From IMG/VR virus record IMGVR_UViG_3300046656_000193, positions 1 through 27,996 of that record: 27,996 nucleotides of DNA; one strand, given 5' to 3'. Position 1 is the stretch's first letter; the number at the start of each line of letters is the position of its first letter. Below the pieces are notes generated by a model, which was not told the DNA's origin, ran no database searches, and was given only the letters and a program-made list of their open reading frames with translations. Of the stretch, positions 2,249 through 12,666 are shown in pieces. The stretch comes from a virus. The position numbers and the translations under genes were made by a program.

Positions 2249-2832
2249 TCACTTTCTGACTAGGAGCTTCTCCCAGTCGTTACGGCACTGCATGAAGTAG
2301 GCTACTTGGGTGTTGGTTGCATCGAGCGCAGAACGGCAGCCGTAGAAAGCAACAATCTCAACAGCGAATCGCGATCGAGTGTCATCAAACGGCCTGCCGC
2401 GTCGGGTTTTCCCAAGTGAGCGACCAGCTCTTGAACCTCCTCCTCGGGTAAATGCGAGAGAGGGTCAACAGCGTATTGATGGTTCGCATAGAGCGCAAAC
2501 AACTGAGTAACAAGTGGAGCGTCAAGCCCGCGAACGTCGTCTAGGCTATCGAAAAACTGATCAGGGAAGTCTGAGTTTTTGCTGTCAGGGTCGACAAACG
2601 CCTTAAAAATGACGTTGCGGCTGATGGCAAGGTCTAGAATCTCAGGGTCGATAAACACGTCTGCGCGACGCTCTTTGACGTACGCCTGAGCGTCCAGTCT
2701 GCACTGGTCCATCTCGGAGCTGGTCAGCGACCTGACTCCGCATTCGCCACCATTGCCACCGGGGAACGTGTAACGAGCGAACGCCCTGCGGCCTGCCAGG
2801 GCGAGCGCGAACAGCTCAGAATTGAACTTCAC
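2249..2832 (-). CDS. tail assembly chaperone, -1 frameshift product (gpG-GT type)
   Basis: Shifting back one base at GGGAAAA, the -1 frame stays open for 52 codons beyond zero-frame codon 142 and ends at TGA, seven bases before the tape-measure start. The join is 2407-2832 plus 2249-2407 and gives 194 residues. The extension looks like real protein (TRRGRPFDDT, RFAVEIVAFYGC, VAYFMQC, NDWEKLLVRK), with the aromatic and Trp residues typical of such tails. In lambda and Mu, the fixed ratio of short to long chaperone is needed for tail assembly. I found no convincing downstream stem-loop here. Confidence 0.8.
2302..2832 (-). CDS. tail assembly chaperone, short (zero-frame) product
   Basis: 176 residues between tube and tape measure, the place of Mu gp41 or lambda gpG. 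These chaperones bind the tape measure during tail assembly and are not part of the virion. The protein is acidic, starts MKFNSELFALALAGRRAFAR and ends LRSMQPTPK before TAG. The gene contains GGGAAAA at plus 2407-2413, in phase as G-GGA-AAA at codons 141-142. This gives a longer -1 frameshift product, listed separately. Most ribosomes are expected to make this short form. Confidence 0.85.
   Translation of the reverse strand: MKFNSELFALALAGRRAFARYTFPGGNGGECGVRSLTSSEMDQCRLDAQAYVKERRADVFIDPEILDLAISRNVIFKAFVDPDSKNSDFPDQFFDSLDDVRGLDAPLVTQLFALYANHQYAVDPLSHLPEEEVQELVAHLGKPDAAGRLMTLDRDSLLRLLLSTAAVLRSMQPTPK
2407..2413 (-). promoter_or_regulatory. slippery heptamer GGGAAAA for -1 frameshift
   Basis: On the coding strand the chaperone reads TTG GGA AAA CCC. 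G-GGA-AAA fits X-XXY-YYZ in the correct phase, and both tRNAs can re-pair in the -1 frame. The position near the 3' end of the chaperone, and the open -1 frame running to just before the tape measure, make programmed frameshifting the simplest reading. Confidence 0.8.
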
Positions 2833-3231: not shown

Positions 3232-4713
3232 TCAGCGCAAGAAGTCCAAACGCGTCTTGGTGATGTGCAGCCGGTTCACGAGGTCAGGCACGCCGATCAT
3301 GTCGAAGCCATCTTCAGTGCGCTCGACTTCGATGTCTGCTGTGAACTGGTCGGGGTTCTCGATCCAGCCTTGCGAGTATGCCCAGACCGCGCGCGCGCGT
3401 CCCGCGAACTCAGCGCGAATCGTTGCTGGCGTGATGATTGGCAGCCCTGGCGCGTACGATGTGCCATCAGCCGCGTGCATGAAGTCAGGGTACTTCGCGC
3501 CAAGATACGTGCGCCAATCGTAGCGTATTGCCGCGAGCAAGAACGGCACCTGGATGTCGCGATACTTGCTGTCCGCGTTGCCGTTCGCGTCGGTCTGATA
3601 CGTGGTGACCAGGCGCTCGATACGGCACTTTCCGCTGGAGTCGACCGTGTAAGTCGACACGCCTTCGGCAAGCAATTGTTGACGCTCGCTCGCTTCAAAC
3701 TCATCACCAAGAACAGGCGCGAGCATGCAGTCGATTGCGGTGCCACGAAGCGGTTGGCCAGGGTGTGTCTTGAGCGCATGGGCCGCAGCAACCCCAGCCG
3801 CTGCAATCCACGGAGGGGTCGGAGAGAGCCCCGAGCCGAAGTCGGTCGACAACGCGTTGTTGCGCGAGTCGCCGAGCGTCGTGAGCGTGCCGAGCGATCC
3901 GTAAGCGCCGTAAAACTGATGGCACTCGCGCTGCACAACCGGGCCCCAACGACGGGTCATCTCAGTTTCGAACGCGGTCAACGTAGTTGCGTCGGTCCAC
4001 TGGTTGACGAGATGCGAAATGTGCGTATCGCCAATGGCGCCGATCGCAGTGGCAACCGATGGATTAGTCGCGCCTGAGGCAAACGCGGTAATCGCAAGCG
4101 AAACTCCGGTTGGTAGTTGCTCGCCAGTGAAATACGAATGCAAGCACTTGAGCGAGTTGCCTTGCGTGCCATCATTGCGCGCAGTCAGAGTCACGACGCC
4201 AACGAGATTGGTCGCTTGGACCGTGCGATATGGGTCAGCGTTGACGGCTGCGACGATGGCTGCGGCAATCGTCGTAACCGTATCGCCAGCCGCGCACGCA
4301 ACCGAGTATTTACCGCGCAGCGTCGCGCCTACCCAATACGGCGCGATGTACAACGCGATCGTGCCGGCTAGGTTCGAGCTGACGGTAACCGTGATGGTCG
4401 CAGTTGCGGGCACGCCGCTCGCATCGTCTGTCACGCCGATGACGTACATCTCGATGCTCGGGTAGACCGTCTTGGCAACGGCCACCATCTCAGCAGCAGG
4501 AGAACCAACGCCAGCCGCGTACTCCGCGTCAGCCGCGCTGAAGCAGCGGTAAGGCACGCTCGTGGCGATGGCACCGGTAGACAGGCGCGAACCCACAATC
4601 GTCATGCGGCGTGGGAGCTCAGGAGTCGAGGATGTGGCGCGGTTGCCGTTGACCTCGGTGTAGTTGCCGGGCACGAGGTAGTTGCTTGGAATGCCCTGAA
4701 AAACAATCGTCAT
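3232..4713 (-). CDS. contractile tail sheath protein (Mu gpL-like)
   Basis: 493 residues, matching the usual Mu gpL length. The N-terminus reads TIVFQGIPSNYLVPGNYTEV with an early PRRMTIVGSRLSTG, typical of Mu-type sheaths. The C-terminal part includes DYDWRTYLGAKYPDF-like sequence, AEFAGRARAVWAYSQGWIEN and RLHITKTRLDFLR, the strands that link neighbouring sheath subunits. The start overlaps the stop of the upstream DUF2635-like gene as ATGA, so translation is coupled. The sheath makes this a myovirus-type tail. Confidence 0.92.
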   Translation of the reverse strand: MTIVFQGIPSNYLVPGNYTEVNGNRATSSTPELPRRMTIVGSRLSTGAIATSVPYRCFSAADAEYAAGVGSPAAEMVAVAKTVYPSIEMYVIGVTDDASGVPATATITVTVSSNLAGTIALYIAPYWVGATLRGKYSVACAAGDTVTTIAAAIVAAVNADPYRTVQATNLVGVVTLTARNDGTQGNSLKCLHSYFTGEQLPTGVSLAITAFASGATNPSVATAIGAIGDTHISHLVNQWTDATTLTAFETEMTRRWGPVVQRECHQFYGAYGSLGTLTTLGDSRNNALSTDFGSGLSPTPPWIAAAGVAAAHALKTHPGQPLRGTAIDCMLAPVLGDEFEASERQQLLAEGVSTYTVDSSGKCRIERLVTTYQTDANGNADSKYRDIQVPFLLAAIRYDWRTYLGAKYPDFMHAADGTSYAPGLPIITPATIRAEFAGRARAVWAYSQGWIENPDQFTADIEVERTEDGFDMIGVPDLVNRLHITKTRLDFLR

Positions 4714-6940: not shown

Positions 6941-8200
6941 TCAGACCGTGACGAGTTCGGAAGCGCGGCCAATCGCCAAAGGCGAGCCCACGCCGAATGC
7001 GCCGTACCACTCCACACGCGTGCGGGCAGCAGGCTTACCCTCGACTTGGCCCACATCGTACAGCTGGAATCCGCCGATGCGCGCTGCGTAAGGGTCGAGG
7101 TTGACGTTGGCCATGTCGCCGCCAGCTTGCACCACACCGTGGAATCCGATGCGAGGCGCGAGGCTGACCAAGTACACGCTCGAAAGCGTCGACACGCTCT
7201 TGGTCTCGGTCGAAGGGATGTCGTCGACTTGGAGGATCGGGACGCCGCCGTATGCGGGCATCTCTTGCATGCCAATCTTGCCGTCAGGTCCGATGACCTC
7301 AACGGCCATACGATCGCTGATGCTGGCACCGCGCGCGAGAGCGAGGTACTTGCGCTTCAGCTTGGCGTTCATCAAGAAGAAGCGATTTTCCTTGATCTTC
7401 ACCTTCTCGAGCAGCAACTCATCGAGCGCGTCGAACGAGAGGGCGTCGCCAGACGCTCCAGACGACACGCGCGTCTGCGCGAGAGACGTGAGCTTCGCGA
7501 GGCCGTCAGGTTCGTTGTTCGAGGACGTGAACGCGAGGTTGCACTCGCCGTTTGCCGTCGCGTCGGACACGTCGATCGTGACGTAAACCGACTTCGAACG
7601 GTTGAAGGAGTAGAGCGTCGCGCTGCCGTCTGCCGCGATGGCAACGTTCGCGCCATAGTCGATATCGCCAGGCGCACGATACGCCCAGAACGTACCAGTA
7701 TGCGTGTAGCGCAAGGTGCCAGGCCCTTGAAGGACGCTGTCTTGCCCGCCGCTCGGCACTGCGCCGTCGACCGCAAGACCAGGCGTGAGCGTCGCGTTGC
7801 TCACGACATAACCAGTCACGTTCGATCCGGTGATCATCTTCTGCTGAATCAGCTGGCCAGCAGCCTTGAGCTTCTGGGAGAGCTGCCAAGCAGTCGGGTC
7901 GCCGTTCGGGTTGCTCAGGTTCTTCGTGTAGTTGTACACGTCCATATCGCTTGAAATCAAGCGAAGCGGCGCAGCGAGTTGGTCGCCGAGCGACGTCGAC
8001 TCGGTGATGCTCGACGCGTTGAGCGCGACGAACTCAGCCGATGCCAACGCGCCCTCACGAACGAAGTCGTGAGAGGTGCCAACCGTCTCGATGAACGGCA
8101 GACGTGCGATCAATTCGTTGGTCGTGCAAACCGCTTTGAATACGCCAGCGGCAAGCGGGTTTCGGGCGAGTGAGCTCGCTCCGAGGTACGTATACGCCAT
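6941..8200 (-). CDS. major capsid protein (HK97-fold type)
   Basis: 419 residues directly after the scaffold gene, preceded by GGAGG with nine bases to ATG, a strong site suiting a highly made protein. The N-terminus (MAYTYLGASSLARNPLAAGV) contains a flexible arm. The middle has LDELLLEKVKIKENRFFLMN and KYLALARGASISDRM, the spine-helix-like region. A C-terminal block follows with IPILQ-like VPILQVDD, VYLVSLAP and GFQLYDVGQVEGKPAARTRV, as in the P-domain and A-domain of phage capsids. Assigned from length, synteny and this pattern. Confidence 0.85.
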   Translation of the reverse strand: MAYTYLGASSLARNPLAAGVFKAVCTTNELIARLPFIETVGTSHDFVREGALASAEFVALNASSITESTSLGDQLAAPLRLISSDMDVYNYTKNLSNPNGDPTAWQLSQKLKAAGQLIQQKMITGSNVTGYVVSNATLTPGLAVDGAVPSGGQDSVLQGPGTLRYTHTGTFWAYRAPGDIDYGANVAIAADGSATLYSFNRSKSVYVTIDVSDATANGECNLAFTSSNNEPDGLAKLTSLAQTRVSSGASGDALSFDALDELLLEKVKIKENRFFLMNAKLKRKYLALARGASISDRMAVEVIGPDGKIGMQEMPAYGGVPILQVDDIPSTETKSVSTLSSVYLVSLAPRIGFHGVVQAGGDMANVNLDPYAARIGGFQLYDVGQVEGKPAARTRVEWYGAFGVGSPLAIGRASELVTV

Positions 8201-8247: not shown

Positions 8248-9057
8248 TCATCGTTTGCGATTGTTCAACCCGGCTGACAGCAGACCTTCCGCTGACATAT
8301 CCGCGTTGTTTACAATCCCGCCACCGCCATTCGGTGACTTCTGTCCACCACCAGCCGGGACTGTCCCAGCGGCGAGATAAGTTCGGTCGCTCAAGAATTG
8401 AGCGGCTGCTTCGGCGACTGTCTTGTGTGCGACTCCGCCGTATTCGATGCTGACAACCTTACCGTCGTCATCGAGTTCCATCTTCGCTTCGGTGCGGAAG
8501 ATGCGAATCGCGTCCGCGCGAGCAGACGACAACACCTTGGAGACGTCCAGACCCTCGCCTAGCGCAGCGTCTTCCATCTTCGTGCGATGCTTCTTTTCGG
8601 CCGCTTCAGCGCGCTGTTCAGCGGCCGTAAGCTTCGTGGTCAGCTCATCGCGTTCTTGCTGGATGCGTTTGGCAGCCTTCTCGGCCGCAATCTTCTCACG
8701 CTCATCGGCAGACTTGCCCTTGAGCTCCAGCTCTTCAAGGCGCTTCGTGAGCTCTAACTGAGCATCTTCAGCGGCCTTGTTTTTCGCCTTCAGATCGTCG
8801 TAGTCAGCGAACTTCTTGCGTTCGTCGGCGAGCCTTTGGCCGAGCACTTTGTCGAGGTCTGCTTGCGTGAACGTCTTCTCTGGAGGAGCCGGAGGCTTAT
8901 CGCCACCACCACCACCACCACCACCACCACCACCACCACCACCACCACCACCACCACCACCACCGCCGGGCGGGTCTTCTGGTGAGTAAAGCGGTCCTTG
9001 CGGAGAACGAGACAGAGCACGAGCGAGAAACAGACTCCTGCGGTTCTTGCGATTCAT
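8248..9057 (-). CDS. capsid scaffold protein with 22-Gly tract
   Basis: 269 residues placed just before the capsid gene. After a basic N-terminus comes an unbroken run of 22 glycines at residues 31-52, then FTQADLDKVLGQRLADER. That FTQ-x-D-[LV]-D-x-x-[VL]-x-x-RL-x-x-ER pattern marks many phage scaffolds. Residues about 85-165 are a highly charged coiled coil (AEDAQLELTKRLEELELKG, AEKKHRTKMEDA). A short C-terminal segment after a Gly-rich linker may bind capsid subunits. No protease motif is visible in it. The ribosome site is weak (GGTGA). Confidence 0.8.
   Translation of the reverse strand: MNRKNRRSLFLARALSRSPQGPLYSPEDPPGGGGGGGGGGGGGGGGGGGGGGDKPPAPPEKTFTQADLDKVLGQRLADERKKFADYDDLKAKNKAAEDAQLELTKRLEELELKGKSADEREKIAAEKAAKRIQQERDELTTKLTAAEQRAEAAEKKHRTKMEDAALGEGLDVSKVLSSARADAIRIFRTEAKMELDDDGKVVSIEYGGVAHKTVAEAAAQFLSDRTYLAAGTVPAGGGQKSPNGGGGIVNNADMSAEGLLSAGLNNRKR
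8905..8964 (-). repeat. (GGT)20 trinucleotide microsatellite in scaffold gene
   Basis: Twenty perfect tandem ACC units on the plus strand (GGT on the coding strand), flanked by one GGC on each side, encode the 22-glycine tract. All units use the same codon, unlike the mixed Gly codons elsewhere, which points to replication slippage. Length changes would stay in frame. Confidence 0.95.
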
Positions 9058-9126: not shown

Positions 9127-9411
9127 TTAGAGCTCAGCGACTTTTGCTTCGATTTCATCGGCGAGCTTTCGCAGGCCGGTAACCGCTAGCATCGAGACCC
9201 GCTTCTGCTCTTCGATATCCAGGCCAGGCCGGAACTGCCCGGCATATCCTCGATCTCCATCGGTCAAGATGACCACGAAAGCTCCGTAGCCGAACTGACC
9301 GTGGAGAGCTTCTTCCGCCGCGAACTCGGCGAGCGACACGGCCTGACTGCGAATCCAACGGGCCATGACAGACTCAGGCTCTTTGTCTTGCGTGACCAGC
9401 GTCAGGCTCAT
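9127..9411 (-). CDS. hypothetical protein in head module
   Basis: 94 residues starting MSLTLVTQDKEPESVMARWI. It is predicted helix, then FGYGAFVVILTDGDRGYAGQF (strand-turn-strand), then an acidic helix ending LADEIEAKVAEL. The start overlaps the stop of the minor head gene as ATGA. The 69 bases after it, before the scaffold start, hold no gene. I do not recognise the family; position suggests an accessory head assembly role. Confidence 0.7.
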   Translation of the reverse strand: MSLTLVTQDKEPESVMARWIRSQAVSLAEFAAEEALHGQFGYGAFVVILTDGDRGYAGQFRPGLDIEEQKRVSMLAVTGLRKLADEIEAKVAEL

Positions 9412-10343
9412 TTTTTCACCGATGTATTCAGCTTCTGGAATGGCCGCTTCATCTTCGCGCGGTCAGCTGCAATCACCGCGCGCGCGTCAACAGCGCGACC
9501 GCGGGCTTTCGCGAGTTTCGGTTTTTCCAGAAGCTTGTGTACAGGCTTGAAGTTGCTCGCACCTGGTTCAAGCACTCTCCGGCCGCTCTCAACCAGTCGA
9601 GCCCGTGTCGGACCAACGATTGCGCGCCGAGTGTCTGCAGACTGGCCGCGAAGCCAATCCTCAGCACTCTCCCGCTTGCCTGACAACCAAGGCTTAGGCG
9701 GTTCTTCTGTGCCGCGCGCTTTCGCGATCTCGCGGTCTTGATAGTACGGGTCGGATATGGCGGCTTCGAAACACATGCATAGCGGATGCCTCCCTGGAAC
9801 TCTGTCGACAGGATATCCGCCAGGGCCTAACCCGAACATGTCTGTAGCCGCGTAAACATCACAAACGTCGGCGCGCGGATGGCTACCCGAAAGGGTCCAC
9901 CTTATGCCGTGCACCCATGGCTGTTTGGCCATGCTCGCGCGCGCTGACTCTCGCGCTGCTTGCATCGCTTCGGTCCGGGCTATCACACGCGTTTGGTATC
10001 GCGCCTTGTCGAGCACCCATCGGTCTACGAGCCCGTCAATCTGAGCAGGCTTCGCGGTTCCCAGTCGTCGCACGAGTTCGCGCGTTGAGCTTTGAATCGT
10101 GTACTCACCATGCGCCAGGTCGGCACCTTGCCCGAGCCTTGCGACCTGCGACTGCCAGCGCTTCACCGTTTTGGCGTACAGGCCAGGGTCATCAGCGCGC
10201 GCCTTCGCAGCGGCTGTGAGCTCTTCAACGTAACGAGGCAAATGAACAATAGGTGCGTCCAAATCGAGAAGCCTCTCGGCCGTCATCGTCAGACTCTCAC
10301 CCGTTTTGATGCTCGCCTCGATCGTCGCGCGCATCTCTTTCAC
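9408..10343 (-). CDS. minor head / head morphogenesis protein, Mu-F domain part
   Basis: 311 residues if started at the GTG at 10343. The core is IARTEAMQAARES (about 121-133), IRWTLSGSHPRADVCDVYAA (147-166) and PGRHPLCMCF (183-192). This is the Phage_Mu_F/SPP1-gp7 signature: ARTE, then S-x-x-HPR-x-DVCD, then HP-x-C-x-C. These proteins sit with the portal in the prohead. No ribosome site precedes the GTG, and the same frame stays open upstream with plausible protein as far as the slippery CCCTTTA. The true product is therefore probably the frameshift fusion listed separately. Confidence 0.8.
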   Translation of the reverse strand: MKEMRATIEASIKTGESLTMTAERLLDLDAPIVHLPRYVEELTAAAKARADDPGLYAKTVKRWQSQVARLGQGADLAHGEYTIQSSTRELVRRLGTAKPAQIDGLVDRWVLDKARYQTRVIARTEAMQAARESARASMAKQPWVHGIRWTLSGSHPRADVCDVYAATDMFGLGPGGYPVDRVPGRHPLCMCFEAAISDPYYQDREIAKARGTEEPPKPWLSGKRESAEDWLRGQSADTRRAIVGPTRARLVESGRRVLEPGASNFKPVHKLLEKPKLAKARGRAVDARAVIAADRAKMKRPFQKLNTSVKK

Positions 10344-10381
10344 TGCTGCCGCGTCGGCCTTGTGGATGCGCTTGGATACGC

Positions 10382-10804
10382 TTAGACCGTCGACCGAATA
10401 GCCACCTCGGATTTGCTTGGATGCCGTAGCGATAGCGTCTTGGCGCGTCGCAAACGGCGGTCTAAAGGGCGACTGGAAGCATCCACCTCCCCGGTGCCAT
10501 AGACTGCGTCGAAGGTCTCGCGGTCTATTGTCCGCGCTGTGTGAGCAGCGTTCTTGATGGCGTCCTCAATCACGCGGACGCGCTCGGCCTTGGTCGCTCC
10601 GAAATTCTTCTCGAGAATCTCCTTGATTTGCTTGACGCTGTAGCCGGTAGCTTTCAAGTCGCGCTTGATTCCGGCTGCAATCTGGTCGTAAGACTTGGAG
10701 ATGAGCGCATCGTGCTCATTCACTACCGCGAGCGCGCGCTTGCGGACGAGTGTCGAGACGTACTCAGACACTGTCGACGCGTGCTGGAACGTCTTTTTGG
10801 CCAT
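10382..10804 (-). CDS. N-terminal part of minor head protein (zero-frame, 140 aa)
   Basis: 140 residues starting MAKKTFQHASTVSEYVSTLV. It is helical and ends with an unusually basic tail (RPLDRRLRRAKTLSLRHPSK) that looks like out-of-frame translation. The tail begins exactly after the slippery heptamer at codons 113-114. The -1 frame beyond that point reads RPPFATRQDAIATASKQIRG and joins the Mu-F-type ORF. I read this ORF as the short product of a frameshifted gene. Its ATG overlaps the upstream stop as TGATG. Confidence 0.75.
   Translation of the reverse strand: MAKKTFQHASTVSEYVSTLVRKRALAVVNEHDALISKSYDQIAAGIKRDLKATGYSVKQIKEILEKNFGATKAERVRVIEDAIKNAAHTARTIDRETFDAVYGTGEVDASSRPLDRRLRRAKTLSLRHPSKSEVAIRSTV
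10423..10469 (-). promoter_or_regulatory. slippery heptamer CCCTTTA plus downstream stem-loop
   Basis: The coding strand reads CGC CCT TTA in zero frame, so C-CCT-TTA is a canonical X-XXY-YYZ site (plus 10463-10469). Four bases later, GCCGT pairs with ACGGC (10454-10458 with 10423-10427), with inner pairs GCGA/TCGC and GCG/CGC and a CCAAGA loop. Heptamer, short spacer and stem are the three elements of -1 programmed frameshift signals. Confidence 0.65.
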
Positions 10805-11055
10805 CAGATTCTCTTGAGTCTTTGCTCGGCCACATACATCAGCCGTTCGACTTCCGACTTGGTCTCAAGGACCGGCTTCGATGTCGTATCACCATCCACC
10901 AGGACGATGGCCGCCCCGTCGTACTCAGACTGAAGCACCAGGTCTATCTTTGATGCTCGAACCGAGAACGCGCCGATAGTAGGCGAGTGAAGCTCTATCA
11001 AACCGCTCGGAATCGGAAACTTCCGATCGTTTGTGCCAACAAGAGGTTTTGCCAC
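10804..11055 (-). CDS. small hypothetical protein, FlbD-like strand pattern
   Basis: 83 residues starting (GTG) MAKPLVGTNDRKF. The segment GLIELHSPTIGAFSVRASKI, then VLQSEYDGAAIVLVDG, then LETKSEVERLMYVAEQRL, resembles the short beta-beta-beta-helix arrangement seen in FlbD/LytTR-like small proteins. The resemblance is by eye only. The start abuts the portal stop (TAAGTG), and the stop overlaps the minor head start (TGATG), so it is translated within the head operon. Confidence 0.6.
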   Translation of the reverse strand: MAKPLVGTNDRKFPIPSGLIELHSPTIGAFSVRASKIDLVLQSEYDGAAIVLVDGDTTSKPVLETKSEVERLMYVAEQRLKRI

Positions 11056-12666
11056 TTACGCGCTCACTTCGTTGTCGTCGCCATCGTCTTCAGTCTGGTC
11101 CTGATTATCAGGAACACCAGCCCGCGCAACCTCGCGCTCAGCGGCTTGGTCTTGCTCCGATTGGTCGCGGATGGCGTCGAGCTCATCGCTGATAATCTCG
11201 CGCGTCTCAGTGGGCAGATTCGGCAGCATGCGCGTGATGAGGCGCGACTTGATTTCACGCTCGGCTGTCGCGCCAAGCTTCAGGCCCATCGCGTCGAGCG
11301 CGGCCTGAATCTCCATCGCAGGGTCTTCGACCGAGAAGTCTGTCGGAGCCGTGACCTTGGTGGACTCGGCATCGGCAACAGACAGCAGACGTCCGACAAG
11401 GCGCAGCGCTTCTTGTTCGTCGCGGCAGAAGTTGCCAGCCATGCCAGCAAGCCGCTTGTTTGTTGGCTCGAACTCGTAACCGCGCGCCACGCCCGAGGCT
11501 GACTTGGCCCCCGTGGGGGTTGCGTATTCGATGTTCGCGATGCGGTAAATCTCGCGCACCGTCACTTCGAGACGCTTCTCGAGAGCCTCAGCTACGCTCG
11601 CCGGAGGGGCAACGTAGTGGAGCATCATGTTCGAATTCATCGGAATCTTGATGGCCGAACCGTTGCCGCCGACCAGTTCCCCGATATCCGTATCGGAGTC
11701 CTCGACAGGAATACCGAGCGTCGCGAACACTTGGCCGCGCACGTGGTCGTCCATCTCGGATTCGAGATTGAACAAGCGACGCGCGATAACCGCTAAGTCC
11801 GCAACCGAACTCATTCCGCGCACGCTATCGTCCGGCGTTGCCTTCGATCGGAACACGATGAGAGGGACGCATCCCATGCCATGGAGACGAATCGGCTCCA
11901 CGGTCAGAGTTGCCTCGTTGTTGCCGGACTGCGTAACCACGTAAGTCTCAACGCGGTCTGGATACCACAACGAGTAGCGCTCTTCGTTGATCGCTGCGCC
12001 AAGTAGCCCATCACGACGCGTACGGATGACGCAAATCTTGACTGCCTGAACTTTGCCATCGTCGCTGGCGTACCAGTCGAGAATGTTGATGGGAAGCAGC
12101 GGAATCGCGCGAACACGTCGGCCTAACTCAACCTCGCGGGCCTTGCTGACCTCGCCGACCGCGTCCTCGCCGACCGTATCGAACACGACCGGCATCCAGC
12201 CGAGCAACGAAGCGCGTGGGCGAATCGTGTCGCGAATCCAGTCCTGCCAAGGCGTATTTTTCGCGTCGACGTTCTCCTGCCATTCCTCGACTGCAGCCGG
12301 AACCATCTCGTAGTTCGTGTCGGCTTTGTTGAGGTAGCTGATCAGGATATCGTGGATGGGGCCCACGTAGTTTTTGTAGTGCGCAACGTTCACGCGCTGC
12401 TGGAACTTCTTGTCATCCTCGCGCGAGAACTGGTCGAGGTACGTATTGAAATTCAACCCAACGCCAGGCGGCGCGCTCGCTGATACAACGTTGGCGTAAG
12501 CCTCAGCGGCCCACCCAAGTTGGCTGACTTCTGTTGGGCCAATGCGACCTCGAAAGCCGCCAGTGCCATATGCCGAGTCGATGAGGAACTTGTGCCAGCA
12601 TGCCTCTTGGGCGTAGTCCGCGCGCGTGGAGCGGAGTGCTTTGATGAACTCCGCGTCAGTTGGCAT
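11056..12666 (-). CDS. portal protein
   Basis: 536 residues right after the large terminase. The N-terminal third has FNTYLDQFSREDDKKFQQRV and VAHYKNYVGPIHDILISYL, the early helical region common in portals. The middle contains VVFDTVG, LPINILDWY and RLHGMGCVPLIVFRSK. The later part has LFNLESEMDDHVRGQVFATL, then GSAIKIPMNSNMMLHYVAPP, then LEVTVREIYRIANIE, the clip/stem/crown order of portals. The C-terminus is acidic. Portals form the dodecameric DNA gate. Assigned by synteny and overall pattern. Confidence 0.85.
   Translation of the reverse strand: MPTDAEFIKALRSTRADYAQEACWHKFLIDSAYGTGGFRGRIGPTEVSQLGWAAEAYANVVSASAPPGVGLNFNTYLDQFSREDDKKFQQRVNVAHYKNYVGPIHDILISYLNKADTNYEMVPAAVEEWQENVDAKNTPWQDWIRDTIRPRASLLGWMPVVFDTVGEDAVGEVSKAREVELGRRVRAIPLLPINILDWYASDDGKVQAVKICVIRTRRDGLLGAAINEERYSLWYPDRVETYVVTQSGNNEATLTVEPIRLHGMGCVPLIVFRSKATPDDSVRGMSSVADLAVIARRLFNLESEMDDHVRGQVFATLGIPVEDSDTDIGELVGGNGSAIKIPMNSNMMLHYVAPPASVAEALEKRLEVTVREIYRIANIEYATPTGAKSASGVARGYEFEPTNKRLAGMAGNFCRDEQEALRLVGRLLSVADAESTKVTAPTDFSVEDPAMEIQAALDAMGLKLGATAEREIKSRLITRMLPNLPTETREIISDELDAIRDQSEQDQAAEREVARAGVPDNQDQTEDDGDDNEVSA

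Follow-up and report, generated by a model that had tools for sequence, protein, structure and literature searches.

The window, by which we mean the whole stretch of 27,996 bases that was analysed, corresponds to positions 1-27,996 of the IMG/VR virus record IMGVR_UViG_3300046656_000193. All of the virion genes that we studied lie on the minus strand. A terminase-like gene (14242-12671) is followed by the gene for the portal protein (11056..12666; PHROG 145, 1.7e-43), a small gene of 83 aa (10804..11055), the head gene described below, a 94-aa gene (9411-9127), a scaffold-like protein (8248..9057; PHROG 206, 5.9e-10) and the major head protein (6941..8200; PHROG 212, 3.7e-33). Tail genes lie 3' of the major head protein gene, among them those for the tape measure protein and the tail sheath protein (3232-4713; PHROG 165, 2.4e-132). 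As a tail sheath protein is present, the window is, judged by its gene content, a fragment of a contractile-tailed phage. Between the tail tube and tape measure genes we also observed a gene (2302-2832, minus strand) that contains G GGA AAA in its own reading phase (2413-2407); its -1 frame extends for 54 codons, to 2251, and the tape measure gene starts at 2242. This candidate (2251-2832) is likely a classical tail chaperone frameshift of the G/GT type.

The head gene that follows the 83-aa gene was found to be divided between two reading frames. The zero-frame ORF, A, runs on the minus strand from an ATG at 10804, which overlaps the stop codon of the 83-aa gene, to a stop at 10382 (10382..10804; 140 aa). 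It contains an N-terminal helical domain and 26 codons past a slippery heptamer, C CCT TTA (CCCTTTA; 10463..10469, minus strand), which is in exact phase with A, where the original prediction had placed it. Frame B is -1 relative to A and is open from 10565 to 9408; its post-shift part (9408..10469, minus strand, stop codon 9410-9408) encodes the body of a MuF-like head-morphogenesis protein. Joining A up to the heptamer with B gives a product of 465 aa. Codon bias shifts between the two frames, from A to B, at about 10475-10445. When both strands of the window were scanned, CCCTTTA was present in a single copy; since 0.6 copies are expected by chance, the heptamer alone is no proof of a programmed event.

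Both halves appear to belong to one protein. The match to PHROG 1657 rose from 98 bits for B alone to 115 bits (6.8e-33) when A and B were joined, and the single-frame relatives L010/L083 and L012 align with both halves, through the junction. The N-terminal domain of A has a homologous counterpart in relatives. Structure prediction (mean pLDDT 76, six sequences) gave an N-terminal helical hairpin formed by residues 6-49 and 57-102, and the frame junction falls in a low-confidence linker directly past it. PDB fold searches with this hairpin and with the protein body returned no meaningful match. The window protein had no match to Pfam PF04233 or TIGR01641 above the curated cut-offs, while weak sub-threshold matches were obtained for the relatives L083 and L091. 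Because these cut-offs were not reached, we call the protein MuF-like and do not assign it to the curated families. Its gene occupies the MuF-like position, between the portal and the scaffold and major head protein.

We searched IMG/VR contigs for relatives in which frame A is open for 90 codons or more, frame B is -1 to it and a heptamer stands in phase at the corresponding position of the alignment. Nine distinct genes besides that of the window, from different metagenomes, were split alike with a -1 shift, and share about 43-53% amino acid identity with the window protein (48% for L009). The heptamer is CCCTTTA in six genes (the window, L009, L082, L161, L164 and L165), CCCTTTC in L078 and L087, CCCTTTT in L089 and CCCAAAA in L079. 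CCC is invariant across the junction in the DNA alignment, and the changes from TTTA to TTTC, TTTT and AAAA alter the encoded amino acids while retaining slipperiness. What is retained at the heptamer is thus slipperiness and not the amino acid. The frame switch is tightly bounded in L009, where A ends with a TGA at 290 and B opens at 271, confining the switch to 19 nt, and CCCTTTA lies within these, in phase at 274. Both the split and the slip site are conserved, which answers a check proposed in the original prediction and supports its reading of a programmed -1 frameshift with products of 140 and 465 residues.

The chance expectation for such sites is low. Elsewhere in the contigs of the shifted genes, long ORFs have one in-phase XXXYYYZ heptamer per 748 codons, and the CCCTTT or CCCAAA types were found in phase only 5 times in 38,894 codons. 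Six of the ten genes have TTA at the heptamer, whereas the remaining Leu codons of the ten genes, about 420, include just 2 TTA; L009 has no TTA in 1,750 codons apart from that of its heptamer. These figures should be read with the ten shifted genes being related to one another and hence not fully independent.

The same conservation bears on the simplest objection, namely that the true gene is in one frame and that one base was lost near the CCC and TTT runs during sequencing or assembly. Loss of one base from either run would give a -1 switch, and more distant relatives are indeed continuous. The switch is, however, seen at the same place in nine other genes from other samples and with differing heptamers, and the L082 split recurs in a second record, L081, from a different sample. 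As the split and heptamer are conserved in nine other genes, sequencing error is excluded as a general cause, contrary to the indel error that had been named as grounds for refutation, and we regard this explanation as extremely unlikely.

The shift is, among the relatives collected, confined to one lineage, because more distant relatives are single-frame and lack the heptamer. No comparable split was seen outside the shifted group among 131 non-redundant relatives, and the next closest relatives (L088, L010/L083, L090 and L084/L085) are all single-frame. In-phase GC-only heptamers in L033 and L054, and a pair around the site in L089, were attributed to chance. Single-frame homologues without the heptamer had also been named in advance as a refuting result; this describes the more distant homologues correctly, but it does not apply to the window, because the window's own lineage keeps both the split and the heptamer. 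The shifted genes group together in the tree (3 changes, vs 7.0 for shuffled labels), though they were not recovered as a single clade and several branches were unresolved. It is possible that the shift was gained once and then lost in some members, or that it has more than one origin.

L077, which falls within the shift clade as the sister of L164 and L165, is an exception: it keeps CCCTTTA and the Shine-Dalgarno-like element described below, yet its frame is read through the heptamer without a shift. A separate break in the frame lies some 100 nt 5' of the heptamer, at a point where roughly eight codons of L164/L165 are missing; the region concerned is 5870-6010 of L077. This could reflect two genuine changes or an error of assembly. 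Relatives were found via alignments of close pairs, followed by further scans; single-protein scans of viral contigs with A, B or portal as queries gave no relatives, and an alignment that included the distant homologues was too divergent for scanning. Database searches found no cultured phage or plasmid with the split gene.

We then considered how frame B could be reached. The original prediction held that the downstream ORF has no ribosome site of its own, and in agreement with this, the window has no ATG, GTG or TTG in frame B until 126 nt past the heptamer. The first such codon was found 84-141 nt past the heptamer in 6 of the 7 genes checked, and at 39 nt in the seventh, L089. Frame B opens only one codon 5' of the heptamer in L009 and L078, and seven codons 5' of it in L164 and L165. 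The residues directly past the heptamer are nevertheless conserved, despite there being no start codon there.

These observations can be set against an inherited frame break with no programmed slip, in which A and B would be separate proteins and B would be made by internal initiation or reinitiation, for example at a conserved Met about 135-144 nt past the heptamer. Most members do have this Met codon, and A often stops 26-29 codons past the heptamer. Initiation there would leave unmade the conserved residues between the heptamer and the Met (RIRGR, LSxSxR), and no Shine-Dalgarno sequence was seen by eye before the internal Met in the members inspected. Moreover, separate proteins would have no need to keep a slippery heptamer in phase, and the single-frame relatives make the joined protein. 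We consider separate proteins very unlikely, and favour a programmed slip that joins A to B.

Two candidate stimulators flank the heptamer. The first is a Shine-Dalgarno-like sequence, GGGGAGGTG (10484..10492, minus strand), 14 nt 5' of the heptamer, with the spacing counted from the base following GGAGGT. Published spacings for -1 shifts stimulated by a Shine-Dalgarno sequence are 9-14 nt (PMC5009743), and the 14 nt found in the window is within this range. The duplex of the window element with the anti-Shine-Dalgarno sequence was calculated at -15.5 kcal/mol, and about 0.1-0.25% of local positions are equally strong. GGAGGT is present at the 14-nt spacing in the window, L161, L164 and L165, and also in L077; the element is weak in L078, L079 and L082. 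Over the ten genes, the strength of the upstream element against the local background gave a Fisher combined p of about 1e-9, with related genes treated as independent.

The second candidate is a stem-loop (10423..10458, minus strand), with GCCGT/ACGGC and further inner pairs, which begins 4 nt 3' of the heptamer, matching the four-base spacer first proposed, and could be an accessory stimulator. It folds at -17.3 kcal/mol in the window (z -2.9), although 2.5% of all 42-mers on the same strand fold equally well. The stem-loop is not kept in L009, L087, L164 or L165; for L164 and L165, the window's nearest relatives, we obtained only -6.0 kcal/mol at this position. The stem-loop of the original prediction is thus present in the window but is not conserved in homologues. 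A downstream stem-loop or pseudoknot is a common stimulator of -1 frameshifts, though bacteria do not strictly require one. Combined over the ten genes, the downstream fold showed no convincing enrichment (p 0.012 with 42 nt and 0.80 with 70 nt), and after this test of ten loci the downstream hairpin was rejected as a conserved stimulator. An Rfam search at the slip site gave no match. The upstream Shine-Dalgarno-like element, rather than the stem-loop, is the better supported candidate for a conserved stimulator. The three genes in which this element is weakest (L078, L079 and L082) were observed to have fairly strong downstream hairpins (-23.1, -16.2 and -20.2 kcal/mol, respectively), and because of this we suggest that the two elements may be interchangeable, either serving as stimulator.

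The identity of the slipping enzyme was also considered. Transcriptional slippage at the site would produce a mixed mRNA population and can, in general, give mixed-frame products as well. Here the runs are only CCC and TTT, generally too short for efficient slippage by RNA polymerase, while the exact X XXY YYZ phase, together with a suitably spaced Shine-Dalgarno-like element, indicates ribosomal slippage, making slippage of the polymerase highly improbable, to the point of being negligible.

Taken together, we propose with strong confidence a programmed -1 ribosomal frameshift in the MuF-like head-morphogenesis gene. Ribosomes would initiate at 10804 and translate the helical domain at the N-terminus. 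On reaching C CCU UUA, a fraction of them would slip one base back, to CCC UUU, and read on in the -1 frame, yielding the usual full-length head protein of 465 aa. Ribosomes that do not slip would stop at 10382, giving a 140-aa protein that consists of the N-terminal domain and a short tail. Stimulation of the slip probably comes from the internal Shine-Dalgarno-like sequence 14 nt upstream, and downstream stem-loops may assist in some members. We infer that slippage takes place at C CCU UUA with stimulation of this kind, that most of the conserved sequence of the protein family is reached only through slipping, and that the short product serves a function. A reasonable guess is that it sets the ratio of N-terminal domain to full protein, at the portal or in the head.

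In L009 (1300-2193) and L079 (7000-8082), the -1 frame has a long C-terminal extension with an HExxH motif (HEEIH in L009, HEWGH in L079), which suggests that the MuF-like protein of these two members bears a metalloprotease-like cargo domain. A tentative and rather doubtful extension of the proposal is that one gene doses two head components: a free N-terminal helical domain, made in abundance and filling or plugging sites on the portal or capsid, and a full-length MuF-like protein, made sparsely; in L009 and L079 the slip would then set the number of cargo-bearing copies that enter the head.

The lambda-type tail assembly chaperone G/GT is an established case of a -1 slip in dsDNA phages. 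The head gene resembles it in having an X XXY YYZ -1 slip in a virion-assembly gene, with short and long products that would have a common N-terminus. It differs in that a MuF-like head gene between portal and scaffold is involved, the shift would be needed for the ordinary full-length protein of the family, and most of the protein lies past the shift. The split gene follows the portal and does not lie just before the tape measure gene, and so is not in the position of a G/GT chaperone; the candidate G/GT site of this phage is a separate one.

Frameshifting has been described in tail chaperones and in the major coat or head genes of T7/T3 (gene 10), Lactobacillus phage A2 and Listeria phages A118 and A500 (PMC5009743). 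As in these coat genes, two products would come from one phage head gene, but in T3 and A2 at least the shift extends a complete major coat protein, whereas the unshifted product here would be no more than the N-terminal domain of a minor head protein. Bacterial -1 frameshifts of the dnaX type likewise combine a heptamer with an upstream Shine-Dalgarno-like sequence and possibly a 3' stem-loop; here the gene is a phage structural gene, the heptamer is C-CCT-TTN or C-CCA-AAA, and the Shine-Dalgarno stimulator is a candidate known from sequence. MuF-like genes and VIP2 ADP-ribosyltransferases are among the unannotated predictions in the PRFect paper, which notes that elsewhere the two form one fusion gene (PMC10885494). 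The PRFect case reads as a different junction.

Our literature search, which covered mainly openly available papers, found no described frameshift in a minor head or MuF gene. This agrees with the earlier remark that frameshifting is unusual for this head protein, and novelty is provisional; the mechanism is known, and the gene is apparently new to it. A minor head protein obligatorily split by a conserved -1 site would join tail chaperones and major coat proteins as a third kind of virion component that is controlled by recoding. Such a split predicts an overlooked short protein and would account for annotators calling the gene broken or two ORFs. A further point of comparison is with the single-ORF PHROG 1657 or MuF (SPP1 gp7)-like proteins of Microcystis phage yong1, Marinitoga phage MPV1 and Nitratiruptor phage NrS-3, which are homologous head-morphogenesis proteins. 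In yong1 and MPV1 the gene order is as in the window, with a small gene in like position between portal and head protein, followed in MPV1 by scaffold and major head protein. Unlike the window gene, those of all three phages are a single continuous ORF without the heptamer, and these relatives, making the same protein in one frame, offer a natural comparison.
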